Positions 15,158 to 34,572 of a stretch of DNA of 64,000 nucleotides are shown piece by piece. This stretch comes from Armatimonadetes bacterium 55-13 (GTDB taxonomy: Bacteria; Armatimonadota; Fimbriimonadia; Fimbriimonadales; Fimbriimonadaceae), in the NCBI GenBank assembly GCA_001898035.1, contig MKRX01000006.1:762150-826149 (forward strand), written 5' to 3'. A program made the translations under genes and the position numbers. The notes under the pieces are model-generated. The model was not told the origin of the DNA. It saw only the letters and a program-made list of their open reading frames with translations, and did not search any database. Position 1 is the first letter of the stretch. Each line of letters opens with the position of its first letter.

Positions 15158-16876
15158 TTACCTGCTCCGCTTAGGCGGAATGATTCGACCGGACGAGTCT
15201 TGGCCGACCGCGTCTTGGCTTAGGTTCTTTCTCATCAAATGTGGAGGAAGGCCCGTGGACTGCGGCTTTGAAGTCAGAACGTCAGACCGCAACATGAGGA
15301 AATTGAAGGCATCGGCGCCGGCGTCGACCTGGTCATCAAAGTCGTGTGACTCGTCTTCGCAAAATCGTCGATACTCAGTGAGAAGCGGTCGAATCCAGTG
15401 AAGGGTTTTCCCCTCCAGTTCCGTTCGCTTAGTAACCTCATCAAGGAACCGGTCAATGGCAGGTAGGCGCGGATGACCATCTTGCAAAAGGCGGACATTG
15501 CCTTCGTTCCAGCGAGCCGCGTATTTTTCTGCCCGCTTCGCTTTAGTGCCGGTGACGGCTTCGATGACGGCGCCGTGCTTGCGCTGGTCCTGCTGCGCGA
15601 CTTTCTTGCCCGCCGATCCTGGATCCTGAGGCATTCGAACGTGGTACTTAGCGCCGAACCTCGATCGATCCCAGGCGGTGACCATCGCGACCAACGCGTC
15701 CACGTTGTCGGAGCTGAGTTGAGCACGAACGACGTCGAGTATCCAAACAACACCATTGGCCGTTAGAGCCATCAGCACTCCGACGGTAAAGTCGCCCGCA
15801 CCTTGAGTCGCCGCCGTATCCCAAGCTCGAACTATCCGAACAATGCTATCGGCATTGAACTCTTGGACAATGATCGCGGCTTTCTCATCGAAGAAGTAGC
15901 CTGTACCTGCGTAGACCTCATGCTGCGCTTCCTCCCGGAAGGCGAGAATGCCCCAATCGAAAATCTGCTTTTGGCAGACTTCTAGGTCTTGCCCGACCCA
16001 GGTCGGATCCCCACCAATGATGAAATGGCGCGTTCGCCCATCCTCGCATACGCGGCCCTCAGTTTGGAGGTTGATGACCGCAGGCTCAAGGTGGACTTGG
16101 CGATTGGCAAGGAAATCGGCGCGACCGTCGTACAGTTGGGCAAAGATGCCATCCGGAATGATTAGGTTTTGCCCGCCGATGACGGCGCAATCTGTCGAGC
16201 CAGCGGGAAGCAGCTTCTTGGTTATCTGACGGATCTTCTTGGCTGTGGTCTTCGCCGTATCCTCAGTGCCGTCCAGGTCATCGAAGACGATCAGGCCAGG
16301 TCTGAAACTTCCAAGCTTGATACCGCGGGCGGCAACGTCGAGGCCAAGTGCCATGACGTTGAAGCCATGCGCTGTACGGAGCTGATCCTTTCGCCAGCCC
16401 TTTTGATTTCCGAAGACGCCGGTAAGACGTTGAACACCTATCGCCTCGAGGTAGTCACCGATCGACTGAACGTGCTCACGAGCCTGGTCTTGAGTCTCGG
16501 AAACGTAGAGGACGAAGGGACGGGACAGCTTAGCGCCGACATACGCGACACCTAGTTCAAGCGTCGTCGACTTTGCGCCTCCTCTTCCCCAGATCTCGAT
16601 GTCAGGATCAGGCGGAGGACAGTTGAATTCTAGTGAATCAAACCAGTCCCAAACACGTTCGTGGCGCTTTGCAAATGGCTTGCTTGCGACGTGGGGGAAA
16701 TACTGCTTGATCCATGATCGCCAGCCATCCCCTGGATAGAGCGCGTCATAAACCAGCGGATCGCTCTGTGTGTCCATCGTCTCACAAAACTGAAAACCCT
16801 CGACCGCGCCGAGCTGTCCCCAAACATCCAAGTCCGGGAGCGGTTCATCCGCTTTTCTCGGTTTCGCTCGTGCCAT
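15158..16876 (-). CDS. terL: Terminase large subunit
   Basis: 572 residues. The ATPase has a Walker A (GRGGAKST, residues 97-104) and a Walker B (LIVFDD, 195-200). The nuclease part has VRAWDTAATQGAGDFTVGV and a late acidic cluster (DDQVDAGADAFN), as in large terminases. This motor cuts concatemers and pumps DNA through the portal. Its start overlaps the small subunit gene by 32 bases. Confidence 0.92.
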   Translation of the reverse strand: MARAKPRKADEPLPDLDVWGQLGAVEGFQFCETMDTQSDPLVYDALYPGDGWRSWIKQYFPHVASKPFAKRHERVWDWFDSLEFNCPPPDPDIEIWGRGGAKSTTLELGVAYVGAKLSRPFVLYVSETQDQAREHVQSIGDYLEAIGVQRLTGVFGNQKGWRKDQLRTAHGFNVMALGLDVAARGIKLGSFRPGLIVFDDLDGTEDTAKTTAKKIRQITKKLLPAGSTDCAVIGGQNLIIPDGIFAQLYDGRADFLANRQVHLEPAVINLQTEGRVCEDGRTRHFIIGGDPTWVGQDLEVCQKQIFDWGILAFREEAQHEVYAGTGYFFDEKAAIIVQEFNADSIVRIVRAWDTAATQGAGDFTVGVLMALTANGVVWILDVVRAQLSSDNVDALVAMVTAWDRSRFGAKYHVRMPQDPGSAGKKVAQQDQRKHGAVIEAVTGTKAKRAEKYAARWNEGNVRLLQDGHPRLPAIDRFLDEVTKRTELEGKTLHWIRPLLTEYRRFCEDESHDFDDQVDAGADAFNFLMLRSDVLTSKPQSTGLPPHLMRKNLSQDAVGQDSSGRIIPPKRSR

Positions 16877-17336
16877 CGTCTAGAGGGAGCGCGGTCTGGC
16901 TCGGAGGTGGTCGCTTACTGGCCCTTTCAGCGGCCTCCATCATTCGAAGCGCCTTGTCCGAAAGGACACCGTGAAGCATCGCCATATCAGCGGCGCTTTG
17001 ACGATTGAGCCAAGTCTTATCCTGGAAGTGCGCCTGTTGAACCGTCAGCGTTTCAAGTTGCGCATCGAGAAGGTTAAACACCCTCTCCGCTATGCTTTTT
17101 TTTTGCGTATGCACCGTATGCATACGGCCATCGGATACGGTCGGGGTTTGAACCTGAATGGCCGTATTTTCCGTATGCATACGGCTATCGGAAGCCGCAT
17201 TCTTCAGAGAGTCGTGCCATCGCTGAACAGTGCCTTTCGAAAGGCCCAATTCCTTGGCGACTCCACCGATCGTGCCACCGGCGAGAAGCAGAGCAATGCC
17301 TTTGGCTTTGATCGCGTCGGGAATCTTCTTCGCCAC
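16845..17336 (-). CDS. terS: Terminase small subunit
   Basis: 163 residues with a helix-turn-helix at residues 15-42 (GGVAKELGLSKGTVQRWHD), a linker with RMHT twice, and a helical C-terminal part. This fits small terminases, which bind the packaging site and activate the large subunit. The linker is encoded by two copies of a perfect palindrome that may be the recognition site itself. Confidence 0.75.
   Translation of the reverse strand: MAKKIPDAIKAKGIALLLAGGTIGGVAKELGLSKGTVQRWHDSLKNAASDSRMHTENTAIQVQTPTVSDGRMHTVHTQKKSIAERVFNLLDAQLETLTVQQAHFQDKTWLNRQSAADMAMLHGVLSDKALRMMEAAERASKRPPPSQTALPLDDGTSETEKSG
17114..17184. promoter_or_regulatory. Paired palindromes, candidate packaging (pac/cos) site
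   Basis: The 14-base palindrome CCGTATGCATACGG occurs at 17114-17127 and 17171-17184, 57 bases apart; the match extends to CCATCGG/CTATCGG. Partial copies (CCGTAT) lie between and beside them. Packaging sites often lie within or near terS, so this is a plausible TerS-binding site. It could also simply reflect the coding repeat. Confidence 0.45.
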
Positions 17337-21971: not shown

Positions 21972-22520
21972 TTATGACGCGATTTTCTTAGAATGCAAGG
22001 ACTTTCTTCGATTTCCATTCCAATATCGGTTCTGCTCTTTTGCCGCTATGATGTCCAAAAGCTCGCCGACTCGGACGTACAAGCGCTTTCCACGCCATTC
22101 GTAGATCAGCTTTGATCCAGGAACACACCATCGCTGAGCCGTCCGCATCGAGACTCCTGCCATGAATGCCGCATCGCGAACCGAGATCTTGGCTAACCGG
22201 ACGTTCCCGCGGGGATCCTCGCGTTCGAAGGTGTCTGGATCAAATGGACTCTCACGGAGCTTTACCGCAAGAAGTGACTCGAATCGATCGATCCTCGATT
22301 CCGCATAGGGGTCCAAGTTCTCTCGATTGAGGACGTAGCGGGCTTTCAACCAGTGTTCGCAGCGGCCATAGCCTCGACACGTGACCACGTACAGCCAGGC
22401 GATCAAGTTGACGTCCGGGCCTGGGGTTTGGTTGTCGTAGCCCTTCGGACCAATCCTTCCGACCCGCGGGAGTTGGTGTCGGCCATAGGCTCTCAAGACT
22501 TGCTGCGCGGTCCACGTCAT
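21972..22520 (-). CDS. HTH protein at the end of the replication operon
   Basis: 182 residues; the ATG at 22520 overlaps the initiator stop (ATGA). Residues near 125-165 read like a MerR/excisionase-type winged helix (SVRDAAFMAGVSMRTAQRWC, then YEWRGKRLYVRVGELLDIIA). The N-terminal half has CRGYGRCEHW. As the last gene before the terminator it may switch on late genes, but that is inference. Confidence 0.55.
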   Translation of the reverse strand: MTWTAQQVLRAYGRHQLPRVGRIGPKGYDNQTPGPDVNLIAWLYVVTCRGYGRCEHWLKARYVLNRENLDPYAESRIDRFESLLAVKLRESPFDPDTFEREDPRGNVRLAKISVRDAAFMAGVSMRTAQRWCVPGSKLIYEWRGKRLYVRVGELLDIIAAKEQNRYWNGNRRKSLHSKKIAS

Positions 22521-23593
22521 GCCGTCACCACCTTGCCTTGCCACCACTCCGCCTCGTCAAATGGCTCATCGCTTCCCGGCTTGAACCGCTCTGTGACGGG
22601 TACCTCGCGTTTGCTGACCTTGGACGTTCTTAAACCCACGACACGTTCCTCGAAGTCAACTCCGGCAACGGGGCCGAGGACCTCCAAGAGGGGCCGGTTT
22701 GGCGAGGATTTCTTACCGCCACCGGAGACCTCGGTGAGCTGAGTTTTCACCTTGCGCCACCGGGGCAGAAAGTCGGTAATCCGGTTGTCCAAAATGCCGA
22801 CAGGATCGTCCTTCCCGAACTCGTTGGGGTGGTCGGTGTGGAACTCGGCGAACTCCATCACGAAGCCGCGAATCACCTCCTCGTCGGGGGCCTCTTGGCG
22901 CAATCGATCGACAACACGGTCAACCCTCGCCGCGGTCGGAGGGCGCCGGCAGTTCTGGAACTTCGGGATGGCTGAAATCTGCTCACCAGTCCAAGCCACA
23001 AGCGGATCCGGATGGTCAGCCCACCAGGGCGAATCCGCTGCTGCTGCATCAGCCCCTTGGGGCAATACTGCGTCAGCAGTATGGGGATTACTGTTGCTGT
23101 TGCTGTCACGCGACAGAGAATCCGAACAAGTGGCGGTTGTCCGTAACAAGTCCGAATTGTCCGTAACAATTTCAGAGCTATTTGAAACAGATTCGCTTTT
23201 GGTTTCCGCGACTTGTCCGGTATTGTCCGTAACAACTGCCGTTTGTCCGGGACAATTTCGCTTGCGTCTGTTTTGAACACGCTTGGCATCCGGTGTTTGA
23301 GACTTCTCCCAGCGAGTGACGACCCAGTGCCCTTTCTCAACTTTAAGAGCTCCTCCACGTTCAGCGGCCTCAAGACATGCGACCATGTCAGCCGGCGGAA
23401 TCCGGTATGGCGCTGCGATCATCGAGGCGGCGACGACCGGGCACAGGCCTCGCTTGTTCCCGTGGGTCCTTACATGAAGGAGGAACACATGCCAGCAAGA
23501 GCCGACGGACCAAGGCAAGTCGGTGAGCCAAGGGTCATCGGGGTCAAAGTAATAGTCGACGTTCTGTCTGTTCCAGCGAGATTCGGATGCCAT
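22517..23593 (-). CDS. Replication initiator protein (lambda O-like arrangement)
   Basis: 358 residues. The N-terminal 100 residues look like a winged-helix DNA-binding domain (GLCPVVAASMIAAPYRIPPA...). A Ser/Thr/Asn-rich linker at 115-170 is encoded by DNA repeats. The C-terminal half is helical (RPPTAARVDRVVDRLRQEAP). It lies just downstream of the DnaB gene. An initiator that carries its own origin repeats is the lambda O pattern. The family call comes from architecture and context. Confidence 0.6.
   Translation of the reverse strand: MASESRWNRQNVDYYFDPDDPWLTDLPWSVGSCWHVFLLHVRTHGNKRGLCPVVAASMIAAPYRIPPADMVACLEAAERGGALKVEKGHWVVTRWEKSQTPDAKRVQNRRKRNCPGQTAVVTDNTGQVAETKSESVSNSSEIVTDNSDLLRTTATCSDSLSRDSNSNSNPHTADAVLPQGADAAAADSPWWADHPDPLVAWTGEQISAIPKFQNCRRPPTAARVDRVVDRLRQEAPDEEVIRGFVMEFAEFHTDHPNEFGKDDPVGILDNRITDFLPRWRKVKTQLTEVSGGGKKSSPNRPLLEVLGPVAGVDFEERVVGLRTSKVSKREVPVTERFKPGSDEPFDEAEWWQGKVVTA
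23137..23255. other. Iteron cluster, candidate phage replication origin
   Basis: TTGTCCGTAACAA occurs exactly at 23137-23149, 23157-23169 and 23223-23235. Related copies are TTGTCCGG at 23213-23220 region and TTGTCCGGGACAA at 23243-23255. They lie inside the initiator gene in the part that encodes its linker. The first two copies are 20 bases apart. Confidence 0.55.
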
Positions 23594-23595
23594 TG

Positions 23596-24963
23596 TTAGT
23601 CTCTCCCTCCGTAGAGATTTCGATACCGGGCATAAGCTGATTGGAAACCGAGAATGACCTTGCCCGTGGGACCGTCTCGGTGCTTTGCGATGATGATTTC
23701 CGCCTCCTCGACGGCGTCGGGGTTGTAATCCGGAGTCTCTTTCGTTTCCTTGGCCTTGTAGTAGGCGTCACGGTAAAGAAGCATCACCAGGTCCGCCTCA
23801 GCCTCGATCGATCCAGATTCACGAATGTCCGACAGAACCGGCCGCTTATCCTCTCTCGACTCCACACCTCGGTTTAGTTGAGAAAGCGCGACGACGGGGA
23901 CGCCGAGTTCCTTGGCCATGGACTTGATCGACCTTGCGATGTCCGAAATCTCTTGTGTGCGGTTCTCGGTCTTCTTGGCTCCGCGCATCAATTGGAGATA
24001 GTCGATCACCACAAGGGACAGTCCTGTCTCCGCCTGAAGGCGCCGACACTTGCCGCGCATGTCCAGGGGAGTGAGATCAGACGCGTCGTCGATGTATATG
24101 GGAAGCGTGTAGATGCTGTCACAAGCGTCCGCGAGCTTCTTATAGGTGTCCATCGAAAGCGACGGATTCTTGAGGACGTGCGAGTTCACGCCGCTGACCA
24201 TTGAGACCATTCGGCGGATGAGCTGCTCACCGCTCATTTCCAGTGAGAAGATGGCAACCGAGCCTTTACCACTCTTCGCCGCTGCGAGGGCAAAATCCAA
24301 AACCAGCGCCGTCTTACCCATCGATGGACGGGCGCCGACGATGACCAGGTTTCCAGGGTAGAAGCCGGTGGTCATCTTGTCGAGATCGGAGAACCCACTC
24401 GAAAGACCGACCATGGGTTCACCGGTTTCGATCAGGTTATCGACATCAATGAAGAAGTTCTTGGCCAGAGTGCTTGCGTGTTTGAAGTAGGTTCCCGTCC
24501 GCTTGCGTCCGACTTCGAAGACGAGTTGCTCGGCCTTGTCGAGCTTCTCGCTGGCATCGCCACTATCGCCGTCGTGGACAACGCCGACAATGTTCTGTCC
24601 AGCCTGCTCCAGTTGACGAAGCATCGACTTCTCGGCAACGTCACGCGCGTAGAACGCCGCGTTGGACGGGCTTGGTACATACTCAGCGACCTGTAGGACG
24701 TAGTCCTCTCCACCGATGTTATCGAGAATCTCCGTGTCGCGAAGCTGCTGAATCACGAACTCAAGACTTGGCGGGACTGCTCGGTTGACGCAGAACCGGA
24801 TGGCGCGGAAGATCTCCCGGTGGGCCGGGCGGTAGAAGTCGTCGGCATCCAGGATCCCAAGGACCTCCTCCGCGGCTTGTTCGCTGAGCATCATCGACCC
24901 CAGCGTGCTCATCTCCATCTCTAGGGAGTGGAGAGGCACCATCTCGGCATTGGCCAGCCTCAT
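23596..24963 (-). CDS. dnaB: Replicative DNA helicase, DnaB family
   Basis: 455 residues. The ATG at 24963 overlaps the previous stop as ATGA. The N-terminal helical domain (MEMSTLGSMMLSEQAAEEVL) is followed by a RecA-like core: Walker A GARPSMGKT (210-218), SLVVIDYLQLM (Walker B) and VVALSQLNRGVESREDKRP. This is the full-length hexameric helicase that unwinds phage DNA after loading by the initiator. Confidence 0.93.
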   Translation of the reverse strand: MRLANAEMVPLHSLEMEMSTLGSMMLSEQAAEEVLGILDADDFYRPAHREIFRAIRFCVNRAVPPSLEFVIQQLRDTEILDNIGGEDYVLQVAEYVPSPSNAAFYARDVAEKSMLRQLEQAGQNIVGVVHDGDSGDASEKLDKAEQLVFEVGRKRTGTYFKHASTLAKNFFIDVDNLIETGEPMVGLSSGFSDLDKMTTGFYPGNLVIVGARPSMGKTALVLDFALAAAKSGKGSVAIFSLEMSGEQLIRRMVSMVSGVNSHVLKNPSLSMDTYKKLADACDSIYTLPIYIDDASDLTPLDMRGKCRRLQAETGLSLVVIDYLQLMRGAKKTENRTQEISDIARSIKSMAKELGVPVVALSQLNRGVESREDKRPVLSDIRESGSIEAEADLVMLLYRDAYYKAKETKETPDYNPDAVEEAEIIIAKHRDGPTGKVILGFQSAYARYRNLYGGRD

Positions 24964-25364
24964 CGGGCCCTCCGGACATCGACTTCGATGATCTGAATGT
25001 CCGGGGCGACTTGGCGCAACCACAAGAAGGCCATATAACGAGCCTTGGAACGAGTCTCTGCCCAAAAGGTGGTATTGCTCCACACTGTCCATCCAATTGG
25101 CCTGGCTTGATATGGCTTCTTGTGCTTTCTGTCAGCCTCGATCCGCTTCCAAACTAGCTCGTTCGCCTTCTCGATGCCTTTATCGGTGGCGATGTAATAG
25201 CGGCTAATATCGTCACAAGTGCCGACCCGCATGAGACCCATAAAGACCAACTGGTCGCAGATCTCGTCACCGTCCGCATTCGCGCAGTAGTAGTTGCGAT
25301 AGGACGTGGTTTGACGGTCGAGCCCCAACGTGTGGAGGAGGGTGGATTCTTGCTGAGAAGTCAT
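24960..25364 (-). CDS. Unknown protein of the replication operon
   Basis: 134 residues; the start at 25364 overlaps the upstream stop (ATGA). It contains YYCANADGDEICDQLVFMG and RYYIATDKGIEKANELVW, which looks like a small winged-helix fold. A helicase-loading or regulatory role beside dnaB is possible, but nothing in the sequence shows it. Confidence 0.55.
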   Translation of the reverse strand: MTSQQESTLLHTLGLDRQTTSYRNYYCANADGDEICDQLVFMGLMRVGTCDDISRYYIATDKGIEKANELVWKRIEADRKHKKPYQARPIGWTVWSNTTFWAETRSKARYMAFLWLRQVAPDIQIIEVDVRRAR

Positions 25365-26514: not shown

Positions 26515-26933
26515 TCCAGCACCTCGATGGTCAACGCCACTTCGCCCCGCGTCCCGCTATCCTTGGCGGAATGGAGCACACAACGACCGAGCTCGAAGTA
26601 CTGGGCGCTGTCGTCTTTGACCAGTTGAGCGTCTACGAGCCCATCGAAGGCGGCTTTCAGTGCGGACACGGCGTTTTGCACATCACGAGGGCGATACCGC
26701 CCATCCTGCGGCAATCGTCGTCCTAGCCACCACTCGGAAGAAACGCGAACGCGCTTCGCGAATGGCAACGGTGTCTTGGTCGAGATCCCGCGTATCGCCT
26801 GAGTACAGAACAGCTCAGCTGCTTGGCGGTAATCCCGTTTGTCCTTAACTCCCTTAGACCAGTGACTTCGGGAGTTTGAGGAAGCCCCTGCCGGAGGCAG
26901 AGGCAATTTGATCGTGAGGACGAGTCCTTTCAT
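26511..26933 (-). CDS. RusA-like Holliday junction resolvase
   Basis: 140 residues, the usual size for RusA. The core RPRDVQNAVSALKAAFDGLV followed by VKDDS matches the RusA signature (D-x-x-N-x-x-K-x-x-x-D and DD). The first Asp-Asn appears as D-V-Q-N. It would cut branched DNA made during replication or recombination. Coupled to both neighbours. Confidence 0.75.
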   Translation of the reverse strand: MKGLVLTIKLPLPPAGASSNSRSHWSKGVKDKRDYRQAAELFCTQAIRGISTKTPLPFAKRVRVSSEWWLGRRLPQDGRYRPRDVQNAVSALKAAFDGLVDAQLVKDDSAQYFELGRCVLHSAKDSGTRGEVALTIEVLE

Positions 26934-27397
26934 TGCCAGCCTGATGTTTCACAGTGAACATCTGCACTCGCGTCGCAATCGCCGGTCACTTCCACTTCGA
27001 TGACATAGCGCTTGAAGTGAACGCCATGAGCCGCGCATCGTGCGGCGAAGTAGGTTTCCCAGGGTCCCAGGCCATCGAGTTCCAAGACCTTGCGCGTGTC
27101 CCGGTTCACGAGAACAAACCCAGCCTCACGGTTGAATCTGCGATAGACCCGGTGGTCAAGAATTCCGATCCGGTAGATCAGACTGAGTTCCTCAAGGACT
27201 TCCAGGATGCGGTAAACGCTCACGCAATCGACGCGCTTTCCGCGCTCCTGGAGGATCGCGTACAACTCGTGAGCGCTGACCGCGACATCAAGGGAGGCTA
27301 ATACCGACACTACCGCGTGACGTGGAAGAGTGAACTTGTAACCGTTCTTCTTCAACGTTTCCATGGCGAGGGATGCAAAATCTTGTGTGTGTTCCAT
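26930..27397 (-). CDS. Fur-family-like transcriptional regulator
   Basis: 155 residues with the Fur winged-helix pattern: LKKNGYKFTLPRHAVVSVLA, SAHELYAILQERGK, CVSVYRILEVLEELSLIYRI. The C-terminal part keeps a shortened dimer/metal region (AAHGVHFKRYVIEVEVTGDC). Fur proteins normally sense metals or peroxide; a copy inside a phage replication operon is unusual. The start directly follows the upstream stop. The metal sites are incomplete by eye, so it may act without metal. Confidence 0.65.
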   Translation of the reverse strand: MEHTQDFASLAMETLKKNGYKFTLPRHAVVSVLASLDVAVSAHELYAILQERGKRVDCVSVYRILEVLEELSLIYRIGILDHRVYRRFNREAGFVLVNRDTRKVLELDGLGPWETYFAARCAAHGVHFKRYVIEVEVTGDCDASADVHCETSGWQ

Positions 27398-28501
27398 CTA
27401 AGCCACCTCCGTGGTGGTTTCCTGTGCGCGTCGGCGCTCTTGGGCTTTTGAATGAGCCTGGAAGGCAAAGGGAATCTCTTCCAGGCCGCGGACCATCCGC
27501 AACGCCCACCTGTGCAGGCAATAGCGGTCATGCTCCGTGAGTTGAGTCGGCTTTGAGATCGTGCGACCGAGAACCCGGGAGTACTCCCGGGAGCAGGCCG
27601 CCCCATGAAGGGCGAAGGTCGGCCAATGCATGATCTCGCAAATCTCATCGAATCCGAAGCCGTGATCTTCACACTCGGCGAGAATGGATTCGATCACGGA
27701 ATCGGGAGTTTCTTCGGGAATAGCAGGCGCGCCGGGCGTGGATTTCACGCAATTGCGAAATCCTCCCGGCTCAGCTTTTCCCTGGTTCGACTCCGTACGG
27801 GCACGGACAAGGATCTGACTAGGTGTCATCCCTGCTGATTTGCCTTGCAGGATCCGATCCGAGGACTTCCAGCCCTTGGCCTTGCAAATCTCGATCAGTT
27901 CGGTGAGCTCGGCTTGAGTGCCACCGCCGTCATTCCAATAATCCTTGGCGAGCTTCTTGCTTTCGTCGGATGCTTGAGGTTTTGCTTGCGATCGATCATT
28001 TCGTTGCGCAGGTGCGGGAGCGCATTGCTCGACTTGCTTCAAACCTTGCGTGAAGCACTTCAGTCCGACAGCGGCGATCCTTTCGATATTCACTTCGAGA
28101 TCTTCAAGGCGCATTTGCATCGCTGATTCGATGGCCGTCTTGACGATCACCGCGATACTCGCTGAGTGGATCTCCGCAGAAGTCTTTGGCGTGAATGACC
28201 GAGTGTTTCCGCCACCTTTGCCTGCGAAACCTCCGCTACTCTTATTGGGCCCACCGAACGTCGTAATAAACGCTTCGTTGCCGTAGTTGCCAGCCTTGAC
28301 GTCGAGTTCGGCTTCCGCCGTAGCGCCGACTTCAAGAGGAGTCGCGAACTTGGTCATGGAGGACTTCCAGACCTTGAGCGGCTTCCCAAACCCTTCGATG
28401 TTGATGAACGCGAGCTTGTCCTTGTCGGTGATCTCGGTAATGGTGATGGTCGCTCTCTGCGGACCGATCTTCGATAAATCCACGGGGCTACTTGCCGCCA
28501 T
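27398..28501 (-). CDS. OB-fold-like protein, possible ssDNA-binding protein
   Basis: 367 residues. Residues 12-85 form an OB-fold-like barrel (RATITITEITDKDKLAFINI... AEAELDVKAGNYGNEAFITT), followed by a Gly-rich linker (KSSGGFAGKGGGNTR). Two helical regions follow; the last contains a Cys/His-rich stretch (DRYCLHRWALRMVRG). A role as phage SSB or recombination mediator is inferred from fold and location. Confidence 0.5.
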   Translation of the reverse strand: MAASSPVDLSKIGPQRATITITEITDKDKLAFINIEGFGKPLKVWKSSMTKFATPLEVGATAEAELDVKAGNYGNEAFITTFGGPNKSSGGFAGKGGGNTRSFTPKTSAEIHSASIAVIVKTAIESAMQMRLEDLEVNIERIAAVGLKCFTQGLKQVEQCAPAPAQRNDRSQAKPQASDESKKLAKDYWNDGGGTQAELTELIEICKAKGWKSSDRILQGKSAGMTPSQILVRARTESNQGKAEPGGFRNCVKSTPGAPAIPEETPDSVIESILAECEDHGFGFDEICEIMHWPTFALHGAACSREYSRVLGRTISKPTQLTEHDRYCLHRWALRMVRGLEEIPFAFQAHSKAQERRRAQETTTEVA

Positions 28502-28628
28502 GATTTTCCTCCTTAGTTGTCGTGGAGGCAGAAACCTGTGCTACGCTAATAGCCGAAGTTGGGTTGGTTTCAACCTCAAAATTCACCATGAGGTCGGTAG
28601 GTGTGTCAGCACCTCCGGCCTTTCTCAT
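28488..28628 (-). CDS. Small protein of the replication operon
   Basis: 46 residues (MRKAGGADTPTDLMVNFEVE...) ending in a polar, Thr-rich tail. It overlaps the start of the OB-fold gene by 14 bases and follows the small HTH gene. No clear Shine-Dalgarno site; it fills the gap neatly, but it could be leader sequence. Confidence 0.35.
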   Translation of the reverse strand: MRKAGGADTPTDLMVNFEVETNPTSAISVAQVSASTTTKEENHGGK

Positions 28629-28639
28629 TTGTCGTGTGC

Positions 28640-28828
28640 TCAATTCCCCTCCTGATCGGGCATGAATTTGAGCATCTCGTACACGCGGCGCAACGGAACG
28701 CCAGACGTCTCCGCGATAGATTTCGGAGAGATGTCCGGATTGTCGCGACGCATTTGCCACACATGCTCCCGATGCTTCGACCACTTGTCGGGCCTGCCAT
28801 TGGTGCTGGGTTTTGTCGCTTCAGACAT
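28640..28828 (-). CDS. Small HTH-like regulator, first gene of leftward early operon
   Basis: 62 residues from the ATG at 28828: SEATKPSTNGRPDKWSKHR, then NPDISPKSIAETSGVPLRRV, a typical helix-turn-helix. It starts just past the operator at 28847-28856 and diverges from the repressor, the position of a Cro- or CII-like protein. Confidence 0.55.
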   Translation of the reverse strand: MSEATKPSTNGRPDKWSKHREHVWQMRRDNPDISPKSIAETSGVPLRRVYEMLKFMPDQEGN

Positions 28829-28846
28829 GCCCAGATGATACACCAC

Positions 28847-28897
28847 TTTGCGCAAAATGGTATAGAGTGTAGGAATTCTTTTAATGGTTTGCGCAAA
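28847..28897. promoter_or_regulatory. Left operators of the repressor (2 x TTTGCGCAAA)
   Basis: Perfect palindromes TTTGCGCAAA at 28847-28856 and 28888-28897 flank the divergent starts of the small HTH gene and the repressor. On the minus strand TTGCGC in the second copy could serve as -35 with TACACT (28871-28866) as -10 after 19 bases. Confidence 0.7.
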
Positions 28898-28912
28898 AAA
28901 GGAGAGGTGGAA

Positions 28913-29572
28913 GTGTCAAGAGCAATAGCACGTGCCCTGGCCGATGTGAAAGTGAGTGAAGGACTCAGCGCGAAGGAGGTCGCTAAGAGGGCAGATATCT
29001 CTTATGACGTCCTTCGGAACTACAAGCTTGGAAGGACCAGCCCGGACGAGGCGAGCCTAGACCGCCTTCGCAAGGTCATGAAGCTGCCCAAGACCTGGCC
29101 AAAGAGCGAACCTGACAGCGATGGGGAGATCGTTAGCCTTTCAGGTACGCCAATGAAGCCTATCCGCGTAGTAGGTGAAGTTGAAGCTGGAGAAGGAGCC
29201 TACAACGTAGATATCGATGAGTCATCGATCCTTGTGCCAGAGAGGCTTGCCGGACTTGGCGGCTTCGGATGGATTGTCCGTGGGGACTCCATGATGCCGT
29301 TTCTTCAGCCAGGTATGGTCGCTGTTTTCAAAGAGTACAGAGAGCCGCGGCCGGGGTTCACATTCCTGCTCAAATCTAAGGATGGTGGGCTCCGGGTTAA
29401 GACGCTTGAGTGGCGCGATGGGCAATGGATGATGATCTCAACTAACCCAACGTACGCACCTACTCCGATCGATGATCACCAGCTCCTTGGTTACCTCATT
29501 GGATGGTATCGAACGAAAGGCGCAAGAGAAACGATGGACTCAGATCCAGGTGGGCTCATTCTCTCAGAATAG
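28913..29572 (+). CDS. Phage repressor, XRE HTH plus S24 (LexA/CI-type) peptidase
   Basis: 219 residues from the GTG at 28913, with AAGGAGAG 7-8 bases upstream. HTH at 18-45 (LSAKEVAKRADISYDVLRNY). The S24 domain has the cleavable Ala92-Gly93 in VEAGEG, the nucleophile Ser116 in GDSMMPF and the general base Lys153 in RVKTLEW. All parts for RecA-stimulated self-cleavage are present, so the prophage is probably SOS-inducible. It lies between two operator clusters. Confidence 0.9.
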   Translation: MSRAIARALADVKVSEGLSAKEVAKRADISYDVLRNYKLGRTSPDEASLDRLRKVMKLPKTWPKSEPDSDGEIVSLSGTPMKPIRVVGEVEAGEGAYNVDIDESSILVPERLAGLGGFGWIVRGDSMMPFLQPGMVAVFKEYREPRPGFTFLLKSKDGGLRVKTLEWRDGQWMMISTNPTYAPTPIDDHQLLGYLIGWYRTKGARETMDSDPGGLILSE

Positions 29573-29574
29573 AC

Positions 29575-29617
29575 TTTGCGCAAAATTGTGCGCAAGTTTT
29601 ATACCGTTTTGCGCAAA
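29575..29617. promoter_or_regulatory. Right operators and early rightward promoter
   Basis: TTTGCGCAAA at 29575-29584 and 29608-29617, with an imperfect copy (TTGTGCGCAA) at 29586-29595. A good promoter is embedded: -35 TTGCGC (29576-29581), 17-base spacer, -10 TTATAC (29599-29604). Repressor bound here would block the rightward early operon. Confidence 0.75.
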
Positions 29618-29667
29618 GGTGTGGTAGATTGATTCTGTAGCCGCTGACACGGCTGAGGAATCAATCA

Positions 29668-29940
29668 ATGTCCAACTTCACACAGAGACACACAACCCAG
29701 GAGATCGGCAAGCCAATTGTCTGCTGGGTTGGTTCCGACTTCAAGGGTGGCACCAAGGTCATCGTAAGTGACCCCCTCACCCTCAATCGCTTCTTGATTG
29801 AGAACATGCAGAGCCGGGAGGTTCGTGCCTACCGAGGCGGGCACCGAATCGCTTGCGTCAACTGCAATTCGAGCCGCACGCGCTGGTCACGGCACATCGA
29901 TATCGATGTCTGGAACGAAGTTCCGGAGCGTTTGCGATGA
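29668..29940 (+). CDS. First gene of rightward early operon, unknown
   Basis: 90 residues. The end has a CVNC pair and basic residues (IACVNCNSSRTRWSRHIDID). It holds the position of cro/N-like early regulators, but no HTH is visible. Its stop overlaps the next ATG (ATGA). Confidence 0.55.
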   Translation: MSNFTQRHTTQEIGKPIVCWVGSDFKGGTKVIVSDPLTLNRFLIENMQSREVRAYRGGHRIACVNCNSSRTRWSRHIDIDVWNEVPERLR

Positions 29941-30137
29941 GGGAACTCATCCAAATGCAGATGGCTGAACGTGCGATCGCAAAAGCCAGGCGCGATCGGC
30001 AATTCCAAATCTCGGTTCTCACCATCACCGCGTTGGTCCTCGGCATCGCCCTGATGTTCGCCTACAACCTTGGCGTTGCCAAGGGCTACGAAGTCGGTCG
30101 ATATGACCGCTTACCGTTTGGAGGTGGGATCCGATGA
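29937..30137 (+). CDS. Small single-pass membrane protein
   Basis: 66 residues with an amphipathic basic start (MAERAIAKARRDRQFQI) and one membrane helix (SVLTITALVLGIALMFAYNL). ATGA overlaps at both ends. Early membrane proteins of temperate phages are often exclusion factors; here function is unknown. Confidence 0.55.
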   Translation: MRELIQMQMAERAIAKARRDRQFQISVLTITALVLGIALMFAYNLGVAKGYEVGRYDRLPFGGGIR

Positions 30138-30316
30138 AGGAGGGTCTCGCTCAAGGTTCGTCCTGGCGGCAAGCCGAATCACATCGCCGAATGGTGACAT
30201 TCGCCACAGCTCAGGCGGAGTACCACGAAAAGCGTGCCGAATACTGGCGTCGGATAGTAACCGAATGCGAGGCCGAAGCCGACCGGCTTGAATCGGGCGA
30301 GGAGCAGGAGGCCTGA
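30134..30316 (+). CDS. Small helical protein
   Basis: 60 residues, mostly one charged helix (TAQAEYHEKRAEYWRRIVTE). Coupled to both neighbours by overlapping start/stop codons. No family is recognised. Confidence 0.5.
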   Translation: MKEGLAQGSSWRQAESHRRMVTFATAQAEYHEKRAEYWRRIVTECEAEADRLESGEEQEA

Positions 30317-30600
30317 TGTACCAGGTCTACATTCCCGACCTGCGCACTTGGGAGCCCGCCGTAGATGCGGCTCCCGTCCAGTTCGAGAACTTCGACCAGT
30401 TTAGTTTCTTCGTCGCTCGAAGCTCTTACGGATGGGCTGTCTATGAGACGTCCACGGGGATGCTCGTTCCCGATTCCGAGAGCGACCACAAGCAAACCGC
30501 CATCGATCGCGCGAAAGAGTCCCTGGAGCACTGGGGAATCGAAACGACCAAGCAAGCGATCGAAACGGCCCTGACCGAGATGGGGGCGATGAGCGCCTAG
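30316..30600 (+). CDS. Unknown early protein
   Basis: 94 residues. A beta-rich first half (FSFFVARSSYGWAVYETSTG) is followed by a helix (TTKQAIETALTEMGAM). The ATG shares its A with the preceding TGA. No family is recognised. Confidence 0.5.
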   Translation: MYQVYIPDLRTWEPAVDAAPVQFENFDQFSFFVARSSYGWAVYETSTGMLVPDSESDHKQTAIDRAKESLEHWGIETTKQAIETALTEMGAMSA

Positions 30601-30622
30601 CCATCACCTGAAGGAGTTTGTT

Positions 30623-31192
30623 ATGTCCAGCATCCCAACAACAACCGACGGCGTCGTCGTTCGAAAGCAGAACATTTTTGAGATCGGAGAAGAGCTCGAA
30701 CAGATATTCGACGCATTCGATCACCTTCCCTCTGACGAAGCCGACGAAGAGATTCGCAAGGCTCTTGAAGCCTACTTCGAGAAGGTCGGCGAGGACCTCA
30801 ACAACAAGATCGACGGCTATTGCGGCCTGATCAAAACGATGGAAGCCCGGGCCAAGATTCGAGCAGAAGAGGCCAAGCGCCTGAAGTCCTTGGCCGAGAC
30901 CGACGAGAACAACGCCAAGCGACTCAAGAAGCGCCTAAACGACTTCATGTCTGTGACCTCCAACACGAAGATGGAGACCAGGCGATTCAAAGTCTGGGTT
31001 CAAAACAACGGTGGGGCAACGCCCATCGAATGGACCGGTGGTGAAGAGCCAGACCCCGAGACGTTGCCTCCGGCCTACGTGATCATCAAGAAAGAGCTTG
31101 ACCTTGAGGCGATCCGTTCTGACCTCGAAGGCGAAATCCCCCTCGACTTCGCAAAACTCGGTGAGCGCGGCACTCACGTGAGGATCAAATGA
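30623..31192 (+). CDS. Siphovirus Gp157-family protein
   Basis: 189 residues with a good AAGGAG site. Residues 18-125 are a long coiled coil with the Gp157 pattern (SDEADEEIRKALEAYFEKVG... NNAKRLKKRLNDFM). Then comes the conserved beta segment METRRFKVWVQNNGG and PPAYVIIKKELD. Gp157 proteins lie in early or recombination modules of siphoviruses and were linked to phage resistance in Streptococcus. Confidence 0.75.
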   Translation: MSSIPTTTDGVVVRKQNIFEIGEELEQIFDAFDHLPSDEADEEIRKALEAYFEKVGEDLNNKIDGYCGLIKTMEARAKIRAEEAKRLKSLAETDENNAKRLKKRLNDFMSVTSNTKMETRRFKVWVQNNGGATPIEWTGGEEPDPETLPPAYVIIKKELDLEAIRSDLEGEIPLDFAKLGERGTHVRIK

Positions 31193-31464
31193 AGCACGCG
31201 ATCCTCCTGTTCCTAATCGGTTGCATCTGTGTCCAGCTTTGTGGAATCGGCATGAGCCTCGACAAGATTTCCAAGCAGTCGCCCGCACCAGTTGCGCCCG
31301 CTACTCCTATCGTCGTCCTGATTCCCCAGGACGGGAGAAAGCCCCTGCTTCCCGCCGTGGCGCCTCTTCCTGACCACTACACCGAGGACCTCATCGCTGA
31401 ACTCAAGGCGGCGGGTCTCTCGGATTCCGACGCTGCGAAGTTCCGCAAGGAGGTGTCTCGATGA
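31189..31464 (+). CDS. Small exported or membrane-anchored protein
   Basis: 91 residues with an N-terminal signal or anchor (HAILLFLIGCICVQLCGIGM), then a Pro/Ala-rich stretch and a C-terminal helix (EDLIAELKAAGLSDSDAAKF). Coupled by ATGA overlaps at both ends. Function unknown. Confidence 0.5.
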   Translation: MKHAILLFLIGCICVQLCGIGMSLDKISKQSPAPVAPATPIVVLIPQDGRKPLLPAVAPLPDHYTEDLIAELKAAGLSDSDAAKFRKEVSR

Positions 31465-32216
31465 GTGCCAAGTACATCGACATCGCCATAATGTGTGGCG
31501 CTTGCAAAGCCATCGTCGGGAGCGGGAGAGAGGCGGAAGAAACGATCGCTCAGATGGAGCCCATTGCGAAGGCCGCTGGGCTTCAGTTTCTCCGAATGTG
31601 GATGGATCCGAACATCCAGACAGAAGAGTGCTCGTGTCCAGAGCCAAAGCCTGCTCAGAAATTCGCGAACGCAATGTCCTTGAGCGGGATGTTCGAGGTT
31701 GAGATTAAACCGAAAGATAAAGGCAAGTGGGAGAAGTTTCAACCTTCATTTTTCACTAAGAGTGAACTCCGGCCAGACGACCCTGAAAAGGCGCGGGAAC
31801 TTCTGCATCAGAAGATCAAAGAGATCGAAGAACAGACAGGTCTCAAAGGCATTTCCGTTGGGATCATCGAACAAGCAATACCCACAAAGTTCCCTAATCG
31901 ATCGAAGGTTGACCAAAAGTGCTTGTACGCATTTTCGGTGGACGGATTTGAAGGGTTGTTGTTCCTGGTCCTTAGCTACAAACGAAGCTGGAATGAATGC
32001 GAGTTAAGGGTGGTTGAGTCCGAGTACGGGTTTCAGGTTTTCCCTATTGATCCCACACAAGTTGTCGTCTTCAAGAAAAGGGACCTGACGGCCAAGACCA
32101 TCAAGGAGGAACTTGCTTTCCCCTTGGCCACTCACCTTGTCAAGAGCGCCACGCCCGAGAAGTTCAAAGCCTGGGTTCGAGAGAACGCAGAACTGTACGC
32201 GGGAGGCGCAAAGTGA
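31461..32216 (+). CDS. Unknown protein with N-terminal Cys pairs
   Basis: 251 residues. MCGACKA near residue 11 and CSCPEP near 57 may form a zinc site. The rest looks like a globular alpha/beta domain (GLKGISVGIIEQAIPTKFPN, LLFLVLSYKRSWNECELRVV). The stop overlaps the DUF5131 start, so the two proteins may work together. Confidence 0.5.
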   Translation: MSAKYIDIAIMCGACKAIVGSGREAEETIAQMEPIAKAAGLQFLRMWMDPNIQTEECSCPEPKPAQKFANAMSLSGMFEVEIKPKDKGKWEKFQPSFFTKSELRPDDPEKARELLHQKIKEIEEQTGLKGISVGIIEQAIPTKFPNRSKVDQKCLYAFSVDGFEGLLFLVLSYKRSWNECELRVVESEYGFQVFPIDPTQVVVFKKRDLTAKTIKEELAFPLATHLVKSATPEKFKAWVRENAELYAGGAK

Positions 32217-33310
32217 ACAACTCCAAAATCGAATGGACGGACGCCACTTGGAACCCCATCGTCGGATGTTCGAAGGTCTCCGAAGGTTGTCGGAACTGCT
32301 ACGCCATGACGATGGCGGCGAGGATCGCGAACGCTGCCCAAGCTGCATTGCGCCAAGGAAAGGGCTTGACCGATGTCCAGGCCGCTTATCGCAACGTGGT
32401 GAAGTGGGAGAACGGCAAAGACCGCGCTGCCGGCGAAAACGACAAGGCGTTGCCGCAGTGGAACAACCTGATCGCGGTCATCGACAGTGTGCTGACTCTT
32501 CCGCTTCGATGGAAGTCACCGAGGCGGATTTTCGTGAACTCGATGGCGGATCTGTTCCATGAGTCAGTTCCGTTTGAAGTGATCGACCAGGTTTTCGCGG
32601 TGATGGCACTTTGCCCCGAACACTCCTTCCAAATTCTAACAAAGCGTCCGGAGCGGATGGCTGAGTACTTGAACCAAGTCAACGTTGACCAGTTCCGATC
32701 CATGGTCTTCGTAAACACCCTTCGCGAGTTCAAAGAGCCCAAGAGCCCGGAACCGTTTCGACGAGCGTCAGAAGCAGTCAAATGGCCACTGCCTAACGTT
32801 TGGCTAGGAACGTCGGTCGAGAACCAGGAGCAATTCCTGAAGCGGGTTCGGGCACTGATTCATTGCCCGGCAACGGTTCGCTTCCTGAGCTGTGAGCCAC
32901 TTGTTGGTGAACTAGTGGTGACGGATCTCTTCCCTGATGACCCAAACCTTGGTTTTGATCCCTTGACGGGACGAATGTGGGGCGGCATCCCAGGGGGAGA
33001 GGATTTCTTCGAGAGCTTAAGGATTCATTGGGTGATCTGTGGCGGAGAATCCGGCCACGGCGCAAGACCGATGCAGTTGGAATGGGCAAGATCTCTTCGG
33101 GATCAATGCCAAGCGGCTGGCGTCCCCTTCTTCTTCAAGCAATGGGGAGAGCACTCGCCTTACTACGAGAAGGCTGACACCGAAACGGGTCGAATCGTCC
33201 TGGCCGAACTTCCACATGGCGAATCCCGCCGAGTAGGCAAGAAGGCTGCCGGTCGACTTCTCGACGGCCGCGAGTGGAATGAGTTTCCGGGGGTGGCCAA
33301 GGATGCCTAA
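32213..33310 (+). CDS. DUF5131 (phage Gp37/Gp68) protein, radical-SAM-like
   Basis: 365 residues beginning KIEWTDATWNPIVGCSKVSE with Cys residues in CSKVSEGCRNCYA, the family signature. Conserved blocks follow: RIFVNSMADLFHESVP, HSFQILTKRPERM, VWLGTSVENQ, VRFLSCEPLVGE and WVICGGESGHGARPM. The three Cys could hold an iron-sulfur cluster. The family is common in phages and defence islands; the reaction is not established. Confidence 0.85.
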   Translation: MNNSKIEWTDATWNPIVGCSKVSEGCRNCYAMTMAARIANAAQAALRQGKGLTDVQAAYRNVVKWENGKDRAAGENDKALPQWNNLIAVIDSVLTLPLRWKSPRRIFVNSMADLFHESVPFEVIDQVFAVMALCPEHSFQILTKRPERMAEYLNQVNVDQFRSMVFVNTLREFKEPKSPEPFRRASEAVKWPLPNVWLGTSVENQEQFLKRVRALIHCPATVRFLSCEPLVGELVVTDLFPDDPNLGFDPLTGRMWGGIPGGEDFFESLRIHWVICGGESGHGARPMQLEWARSLRDQCQAAGVPFFFKQWGEHSPYYEKADTETGRIVLAELPHGESRRVGKKAAGRLLDGREWNEFPGVAKDA

Positions 33311-33638
33311 CCTCGATGGCCCTAAGCCGACTCCGGCGCGGGTGCTAACCCTCGACTTCGATCAAGACTTATACCGATCGATGCTTCGACCGGAGACGCA
33401 AGCAGCTCTCGCCGAACGCGACCGCAATCAGATGTCTCCCTTCCGGGGTGACAGCCAGCGGTGCAAGGAGTGCGACGAACCGTTTCGCCCGTGTGACTCG
33501 ACCGGATCCGACCTAGGTCTTTGCCAGAACTGCTGGGAAGCACTATCGGCCAACGATTTCTGGAAAGAGGTCAAGGACCTTGAGCCAACCGGATATCCCG
33601 ACGAATACCGGCGCGTGAGTGGAGGCGATCAGTCGTGA
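33303..33638 (+). CDS. Small zinc-ribbon protein
   Basis: 111 residues from the ATG at 33303, inside the end of the DUF5131 gene. Two Cys pairs, CKECDEPF and CQNCWEAL, 25 residues apart suggest a treble-clef zinc finger. Function unknown. Confidence 0.55.
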   Translation: MPNLDGPKPTPARVLTLDFDQDLYRSMLRPETQAALAERDRNQMSPFRGDSQRCKECDEPFRPCDSTGSDLGLCQNCWEALSANDFWKEVKDLEPTGYPDEYRRVSGGDQS

Positions 33639-33865
33639 ACACACCGACCCGGATCGTCTACATCGACCCCGTGACGAAGACGCGGCTATATGCCGCCCCT
33701 GGCGGCAAGTGGGTGACCATCGACGGCAACAAGTACTCGCCGGTGGGTCAGCCCCAATCCGAACGAAATTACAAGGAGGTTTCCCATGGTGGAAGTGAAC
33801 AGCAAGTGGCGCAAGAAATGCTCCCGGCACGATTCGCATATCTACACGGTTGCGGAGGTTTCTGA
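33635..33865 (+). CDS. Possible small protein, overlapping the next gene
   Basis: 76 residues from GTG at 33635, which overlaps the previous stop (GTGA). The first 45 residues read like protein (RIVYIDPVTKTRLYAAPGGK). The last 25 lie in the 80-base overlap with the next, better supported gene. Real length uncertain. Confidence 0.35.
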   Translation: MNTPTRIVYIDPVTKTRLYAAPGGKWVTIDGNKYSPVGQPQSERNYKEVSHGGSEQQVAQEMLPARFAYLHGCGGF

Positions 33866-33995
33866 GATCCGCAACGGCATACGCGTGAAAGCCGAGATGG
33901 AACAACACGGCATCCGCTCTCGATGGATTGGTCCGATCGAGGACTTCGAGGCTGAGTTTGAGATGGTTCAGGAGGTGGCACATGCACGCTTCTAA
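33786..33995 (+). CDS. Small unknown protein
   Basis: 69 residues with a strong AAGGAGG site 6 bases upstream of the ATG. Mixed alpha/beta (HIYTVAEVSEIRNGIRVKAE). No family recognised. Confidence 0.5.
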   Translation: MVEVNSKWRKKCSRHDSHIYTVAEVSEIRNGIRVKAEMEQHGIRSRWIGPIEDFEAEFEMVQEVAHARF

Positions 33996-34572
33996 TTCCG
34001 AACACTACACTTCGTGCCCAATGTTCGCCGAAACGGTCCGTTTGGCACGATGGGCCGAGGGAGACCTGCCGGGTTCTCGGAGGCTGGTGCGATTCTCCAT
34101 GGAGATTTATTGGCTTCGAGAAAGCGAAACACATTTCGCCTACTATTGGGACGGTCGGATTTTTCGAGAAAGCTCGACGACCAATGACTTCTATGGATTT
34201 CTGACATCGCCAACCGTTGAAGTGTATGAGCGGACCGTTAACCTATTCTCGTTAACTGCAACAGATCGGCTTGAATATCGTGCAACAACGATCATTTCAG
34301 AATATCCCGTTCAACTAATCAAGGCCGAGCCAGGGAAAAAGTCTCTCGTCAAGACATTCTCCAGTGACATCTTCCTTGGATCAGAAGACGACTATGTGCG
34401 GATTGAGAATTACGATTACGACAAAGGGGAACCCGACTGGGTTCCCGGCGACGTACTGCTAAAGCCTCGCACAGTCGACGAAGTAGTAACGTTCTCGTCA
34501 AAGCGGTCGGAAGAGGAAAACGACCGATCCCTTAGTGACCTACGGGCGCGATGGATGGAGGTAGTCCGATGA
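33982..34572 (+). CDS. Unknown early protein
   Basis: 196 residues from the ATG at 33982, with GGAGG 8 bases upstream. Aromatic, beta-rich sequence (HFAYYWDGRIFRESSTTNDF). Its base composition is slightly more AT-rich than the flanking genes. The stop overlaps the helicase-methyltransferase start, so it may be a partner of that protein. No family recognised. Confidence 0.5.
   Translation: MHASNSEHYTSCPMFAETVRLARWAEGDLPGSRRLVRFSMEIYWLRESETHFAYYWDGRIFRESSTTNDFYGFLTSPTVEVYERTVNLFSLTATDRLEYRATTIISEYPVQLIKAEPGKKSLVKTFSSDIFLGSEDDYVRIENYDYDKGEPDWVPGDVLLKPRTVDEVVTFSSKRSEEENDRSLSDLRARWMEVVR

Follow-up and report, generated by a model that had tools for sequence, protein, structure and literature searches.

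The putative replication initiator, a replisome-organiser-like protein of 358 aa, is encoded on the reverse strand at 22517-23593 of the 64,000 nucleotides analysed (the window). Its assignment is based on the open reading frame and on homology to L008, a gene of the same phylum. Upstream of it, in the same transcription direction and 2 bp apart, lies a gene for a DnaB-like replicative helicase (23596-25092, reverse strand; PF03796, 5.6e-101; PF00772, 1.2e-25). A helicase loader gene was not identified. Three IMG/VR contigs carry the region at 100% DNA identity (8.9-11 kb compared). The early gene block of the phage also includes a reverse-strand gene for a FUR-family regulator (26930-27397; PF01475, 1.7e-11).

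The initiator has no Pfam match above threshold and no PHROG match. This includes Phage_rep_O (PF04492), which lambda O itself matches at 5.7e-36, the replisome-organiser family PF09681 and the replisome-organiser PHROGs, and RepA_N (PF06970) in the Pfam search. A tblastn search against phages and sequence searches against the PDB yielded no match either. The AlphaFold2 model is poor (mean pLDDT 47). A winged-helix N-terminal part (residues 1-97, 23303-23593) is predicted at low confidence, with pLDDT of about 50-78 for residues 11-90, helices at 33-44, 53-63 and 67-79, and wing strands at 83-86 and 89-92. It is followed by a basic helix (residues 102-113, DAKRVQNRRKRN, 23255-23290), proposed from the model and the alignment to relatives, by a linker predicted as disordered (residues 113-200, 22994-23257, pLDDT <50) and by a helical C-terminal part (residues 203-291, 22721-22987, pLDDT about 59-67 up to residue 280). 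This order, read from a model of pLDDT 47, agrees with that in the model of the relative L206. A Foldseek search of the poor model against BFVD gave two matches (E 3.2e-4 and 8.1e-4), the second of which is a Lin1244/Lin1753-like protein. The C-terminal part of the initiator likely recruits the helicase, as suggested by the corresponding part of L008, which matches replication initiation PHROGs.

The iteron cluster occupies 23137-23255, corresponding to codons 113-153 of the initiator gene. A motif search on the forward strand found three exact copies of TTGTCCGTAACAA, at 23223-23235 (iteron 2), 23157-23169 (iteron 3) and 23137-23149 (iteron 4). Iteron 1 (23243-23255), encoded beside the basic helix, is the palindromic variant TTGTCCGGGACAA with two mismatches to TTGTCCGTAACAA. 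A partial iteron of 7 bp, TTGTCCG (23213-23219), lies 10 bp from iteron 2. The preliminary description had reported three exact copies and two variants within the linker-coding part of the initiator gene, and both the count and the place were reproduced. The spacings from start to start are 20, 56, 10 and 20 bp, resulting in two pairs of 20-bp-spaced sites that flank an A+T-rich stretch. This spacer (23170-23212, no strand assigned) is a candidate unwinding element, though only of moderate A+T-richness. Within the 64-kb window, the 30-nt segments that begin at 23160 and 23170 rank high for low duplex stability (99.1 and 98.8 percentile). GC skew had been proposed as a check of the site; it showed no clear switch at 23137-23255 and gives no clear pointer to it.

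In the whole genome (4,525,422 bases), TTGTCCGTAACAA has three exact matches, all in the cluster, and a reversed control pattern has none. With up to three mismatches, 12 matches were found in the window versus 10.97 +/- 2.91 expected. Such loose matches are at chance level and uninformative alone; what carries the signal is that exact copies occur and that they are clustered. In a scan for repeat density over 2,129 segments of 150 nt, the segment from 23131 ranked first with a score of 86, and the next separate place reached 66. The initiator gene scored 94 versus 29.6 +/- 6.9 in synonymous-codon shuffles, none of which (0/300) attained the observed density. On the coding strand, two of the GTTAC cores are in frame 0 and the third is in frame 2; hence the repetition belongs to the DNA and does not constitute a peptide repeat. 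The opposite view, a repeated peptide of the disordered linker without a role as DNA site, is extremely improbable: repetitiveness is usual for such linkers and two copies encode VTDN in frame, yet the copies occupy more than one frame and the shuffles preserving the peptide do not reproduce their density.

The sites are dyads and TTGTCCGGGACAA is palindromic, as are many operators, and the prophage encodes a CI-like repressor (28601-29572; phrog_4, 1.1e-20). The repeats could thus serve as operators of this repressor or in autoregulation of the initiator, with the origin located elsewhere. Their distribution speaks against this function. All copies in the window with up to two mismatches lie deep within one coding region, and no copy with up to three mismatches occurs within 26852-36856, the span holding the repressor gene. 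Furthermore, homologues retain the place of the repeats while the repeat sequence differs. An operator function is therefore considered improbable.

A single-sequence search of 291 genomes of the phylum gave matches in five, including the window's own and L010 (E 2.1e-4), which was rejected as spurious since it covers 55 residues in a frame interrupted by a stop. With a profile built from four N-termini, six genomes matched, including L017 and the distant L016; the former was left out due to an internal stop. Further locus searches with single proteins yielded nothing, the identical locus or one weak locus. L008 is homologous to the window protein at E 4.7e-17 and matches phrog_270, 'replication initiation protein' (5e-11), as does L009 (4.6e-14). 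The C-terminal part of L008 is similar to SfV-like phage replication proteins (best E 5e-4). L011 matches phrog_3926 (6e-5) and, below the cut-off, PF09681 (0.012), and its N-terminus is weakly similar to DnaD-like proteins of Staphylococcus phages (E 8e-3). The distant L016 matches the replisome organizer phrog_4880 (1.4e-4). A search with phrog_3926 gave eight loci of the phylum, of which L024, L025, L026, L027 and L029 were scored; L028, L030 (a C-terminal match with two stops) and L031 (a repetition of L011) were left unscored.

Most of the nine other initiator-like genes of the phylum carry repeats of differing sequence at the corresponding place. The linker repeats are CAACGGTCAA in L009, GTAACG/CGTTAC in L011 and GTGACGTCAC in L008. 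In the density test, peaks within codons 101-160 were obtained for L009 (reached by 1/300 shuffles), L011 (0/300) and L016 (1/300), and peaks within codons 81-170 for L027 (0/200), L025 (1/200), L029 (2/200) and L024 (9/200). L008 was not significant (29/300), and the peak of L026 (codons 161-210, 1/200) is a simple CCAGAG repeat. Lambda O, the positive control, peaked at codons 111-160 (0/300), SfV orf39 at codons 81-130 (0/300), and StB20 gave 7/300. Five control genes (lambda P, both DnaB genes, a terminase gene and the open reading frame at 27398-28501) were not significant, with 22/300 or more. The last of these, on the reverse strand, is borderline at 22/300; its product is an early protein of 367 aa that matches neither Pfam nor PHROGs.

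The segment 23137-23255 is very probably the core of a phage replication origin located inside the gene of its own initiator. This reading is favoured because the repeats are genuine and clustered, occur at no other place in the genome and are set in different frames, and because a DnaB gene adjoins, homologues match replication initiation families and relatives show a similar layout. Points against it are the non-significant density test of L008, the poor model and missing family match of the window protein, the GC skew, the lack of an identified loader gene, and the position and modest A+T-richness of the candidate unwinding element. Initiator binding to the iterons, unwinding, helicase loading and the start of replication would then take place at this site. 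After induction, the initiator would bind the iterons via its N-terminal winged helix and the following basic helix. Once bound, it would bend the A+T-rich spacer or adjacent DNA, open it, and use its C-terminal part to load the DnaB helicase that the phage itself encodes. SPP1 has two regions bound by gp38, one of them proposed to stall forks (PMC6316719). By the same scheme, the iterons could be a second element for partition or fork stalling, comparable to SPP1 oriR and bound by the initiator, with the origin elsewhere. This is very improbable. Neither the window nor the genome holds a second repeat cluster, so that the site would be the sole one of its type.

A putative gene for the small terminase subunit (16845-17336, reverse strand; phrog_3218, 2.9e-4) directly precedes the large terminase gene. 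Inside it, at 17106-17192, two perfect 14-bp palindromes CCGTATGCATACGG sit in a 30-nt repeat of 87% identity, 57 bp apart. In repeat density, this place is second in the window only to the iteron cluster. P22 and SPP1 offer the analogy of a packaging site (pac) inside a terminase gene. By this analogy, a pac site is likely here, and the candidate would likely be another case of binding sites within the gene of their binder.

GTNAC was noticed while the linkers were compared, and the linker was fixed as nt 301-495 before further phages were fetched. In ten phylum genes, the set that had itself suggested the motif, the linker has a 6.9 times higher density of GTNAC than the remaining gene (33/1950 versus 17/6915 nt). 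In 15 genes of Firmicutes and Fusobacterium phages, comprising StB20, which had been seen beforehand, and 14 picked for diversity among 60 listed of 229 records, the density ratio is 8.1 (66/2925 versus 28/10113). Among the 16 gapped palindromes compared, GTNAC came first in each set. Synonymous shuffles gave 16.0 +/- 2.1 copies for the ten genes and 36.1 +/- 2.3 for the 15 genes; with 66 copies observed in the latter, in all three frames, a peptide origin of the repeats is disfavoured in the relatives as well. Lambda O and SfV orf39 together show no enrichment in the linker (1/390 versus 12/1323). In an extended set of replisome-organiser genes, 66 clusters formed at 80% identity from 238 genes after 17 of 255 loci had been dropped, linker GTNAC is 9.4 times denser (230/12870 versus 82/42909). 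At least two copies are present in 46 of the 66 clusters and none in 16. In the phylum, L009 and L026 have no copy and L025 has one.

GTNAC is scarce or absent in several replisome-organiser genes (L129, L132, L134, L138, L139, L147, L149, L179, L187, L193, L196, L199 and L200), which have other linker repeats and other basic helices; repeats found in such genes include TCGTCTGAC, GTAAAACTAAC and GTCAATGACA. An A/G-rich tract behind the iterons exceeds the rest of the gene in 63 of 70 relatives and is present in lambda too. Such A/G-rich or short-period tracts, e.g. GATAAA or GATATA, are a possible unwinding element. They start at codon 130 in L011, 143 in L024, 146 in StB20 (L021) and 142 in lambda O (L023), and comprise codons 139-150 in L016. 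The window gene has no such tract behind its iterons, its most purine-rich 45-mer being located at codon 340, and the tract was consequently kept out of the explanation.

The centre of the GTNAC core covaries with the basic helix. The largest difference between genes with GTWAC (A/T type) and GTSAC (G/C type) is at StB20 position 120, which belongs to the basic stretch following the wing. In a set of 91 distinct N-termini, K or N occupies this position in 27/27 genes of the G/C type and 1/64 of the A/T type. The single A/T-type gene with K is L148, whose helix alignment was judged doubtful; it was retained in the count. The balanced accuracy is 0.992 at position 120, compared to 0.836 at the next position and 0.791 at the best position within the winged helix. 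Linkage alone could move neighbouring elements together, but position 120 should then not stand out from positions 116-123. Initially, K was seen in 8/8 G/C-type genes. G/C-type loci fetched later had K in ten cases and N in ten, the latter not foreseen. A tree built from the winged helix alone shows 13 changes of type. Independent pairs on well-supported branches agreed in direction in 4/4 cases, a number for which the p value has a floor of 0.125.

Five helix types paired with five iteron cores in 36/37, 16/17, 4/6, 7/7 and 3/3 genes, respectively. Helix type and core match in 66 of the 70 genes, with one off-diagonal case, and a tree of the residues preceding the helix shows 15 switches of helix type. 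The types are patterns written by the authors, and for types C-E the cores were derived from those very genes; the exclusivity of the pairing is thus a test, the choice of cores is not. Other helix types, e.g. that of StB20 itself, are outside the 70 genes. In the good model of L206, the basic stretch forms a long helix (106-130) that follows a confidently predicted winged helix. In the alignment to relatives, V106 of the window's basic helix corresponds to the position that covaries with the iteron centre, and its combination with GTTAC fits the rule. In the phylum, the key residue is Q in L011 and L016 and V in L024 and L029, all mainly of the A/T type. For L008 (G/C type), M or N is aligned depending on the aligner option, and this ambiguous case counts neither for nor against the rule. 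L027, mostly of the G/C type, lacks a comparable helix.

These observations suggest that related phages inherit the DNA-reading part and the target repeats together. Even chances are given to a reading in which the base-reading element resides at least partly in the basic helix right after the wing, which is encoded just upstream of the iterons, forms a code with the iteron core and is exchanged jointly with it. Helix type and core would constitute a near one-to-one code, in which one helix residue would set the centre of GTNAC (V or Q for A/T, K or N for G/C). As they adjoin within one gene, helix and iterons could be exchanged as a small matched specificity cassette, which may have been placed as one unit under different winged-helix domains. 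Cassette exchange, if true, would account for the location of these origins within initiator genes. With V106 and GTTAC, the Armatimonadota prophage conforms to the code. No description of this code was found in the open literature on phage initiator-gene iterons, replisome organisers, Lin1244, GTAACGTTAC and RepA_N; an earlier description is possible. The link between a helix residue and the central base makes origin recognition, and the ways in which phages change their origin specificity, directly testable. In addition, origins embedded in initiator genes could become predictable from sequence.

Among plasmid systems, pSK41 Rep (RepA_N) has binding sites within the gene (Rep boxes), a winged-helix N-terminus, an origin-encoded linker and a DnaD-like fold (PMC5703833), features that the window protein appears to share. 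The same source places the Rep boxes centrally in rep, describes the origin-encoded linker as deletable from the protein and reports for pPR9 a swapped stretch that consists of the N-terminal domain plus the origin (PMC5703833). It also describes a contact of the winged helix with the Rep box (PMC5703833), by which the basic helix is probably not the sole reader. The system differs in belonging to a plasmid instead of a phage, and the window protein has no RepA_N match by Pfam. The L206 model superimposes on 4pql, 4pt7 and 5kbj with Z 8.6-8.9 and rmsd 3.3-3.5 over 88 residues, a match that is weak on its own since the winged helices of CRP and NtcA score equally. The three structures, titled 'initiator', 'Rep-DNA complex' and 'DNA binding protein', are presumably RepA_N proteins. 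Rep of Lactococcus phage TP901-1 also has in-gene repeats behind the N-terminal domain, but an unrelated repeat and no comparable basic helix.

Replisome organisers (Phage_rep_org_N/DnaD-like, e.g. StB20) appear from the models to share the succession of winged helix, basic helix, iteron-bearing linker and helical C-terminus. Many of them have GTNAC iterons, and a DnaB gene is near: that of StB20 lies downstream, and the open reading frame next to L011 reads like a candidate DnaB. In contrast, the window protein reaches neither PF09681 nor any PHROG, and its iteron is asymmetric (GTTAC plus GGACAA). SPP1 gp38 resembles it in that oriL lies inside gene 38 (PMC6316719).

The lambda O/ori arrangement had been proposed for this locus from the outset, with the reservation that the protein is not recognisably O. 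Both statements are supported: a predicted winged-helix N-terminus, iterons in the linker-coding part, a predicted helical C-terminus and an adjoining helicase gene go with a protein without Pfam or PHROG match, whose homologues match other replication initiation families. In lambda as in the window, the iterons follow the N-terminal part, DNA-binding in O and putatively so here (annotated O codons 117-145, here 113-153), are dyads about 20 bp apart and are significant in the shared density test. The iteron sequences are unrelated, and the window protein has no Phage_rep_O match. The A+T-rich stretch lies between the iteron pairs in the window but beside the iterons in lambda, and the neighbouring gene encodes a phage DnaB helicase, not a P-type loader. 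SPP1 oriL within gene 38 is experimentally established, likewise the lambdoid ori within O (PMC6316719, PMC7466680). The layout of an origin within the initiator gene is already known from lambda O, SPP1 gene 38 and pSK41 rep, and the finding is ordinary in kind. It maps a probable replication origin in a prophage from a little-studied phylum and adds to the lambda/SPP1 layout an initiator that no existing family covers.
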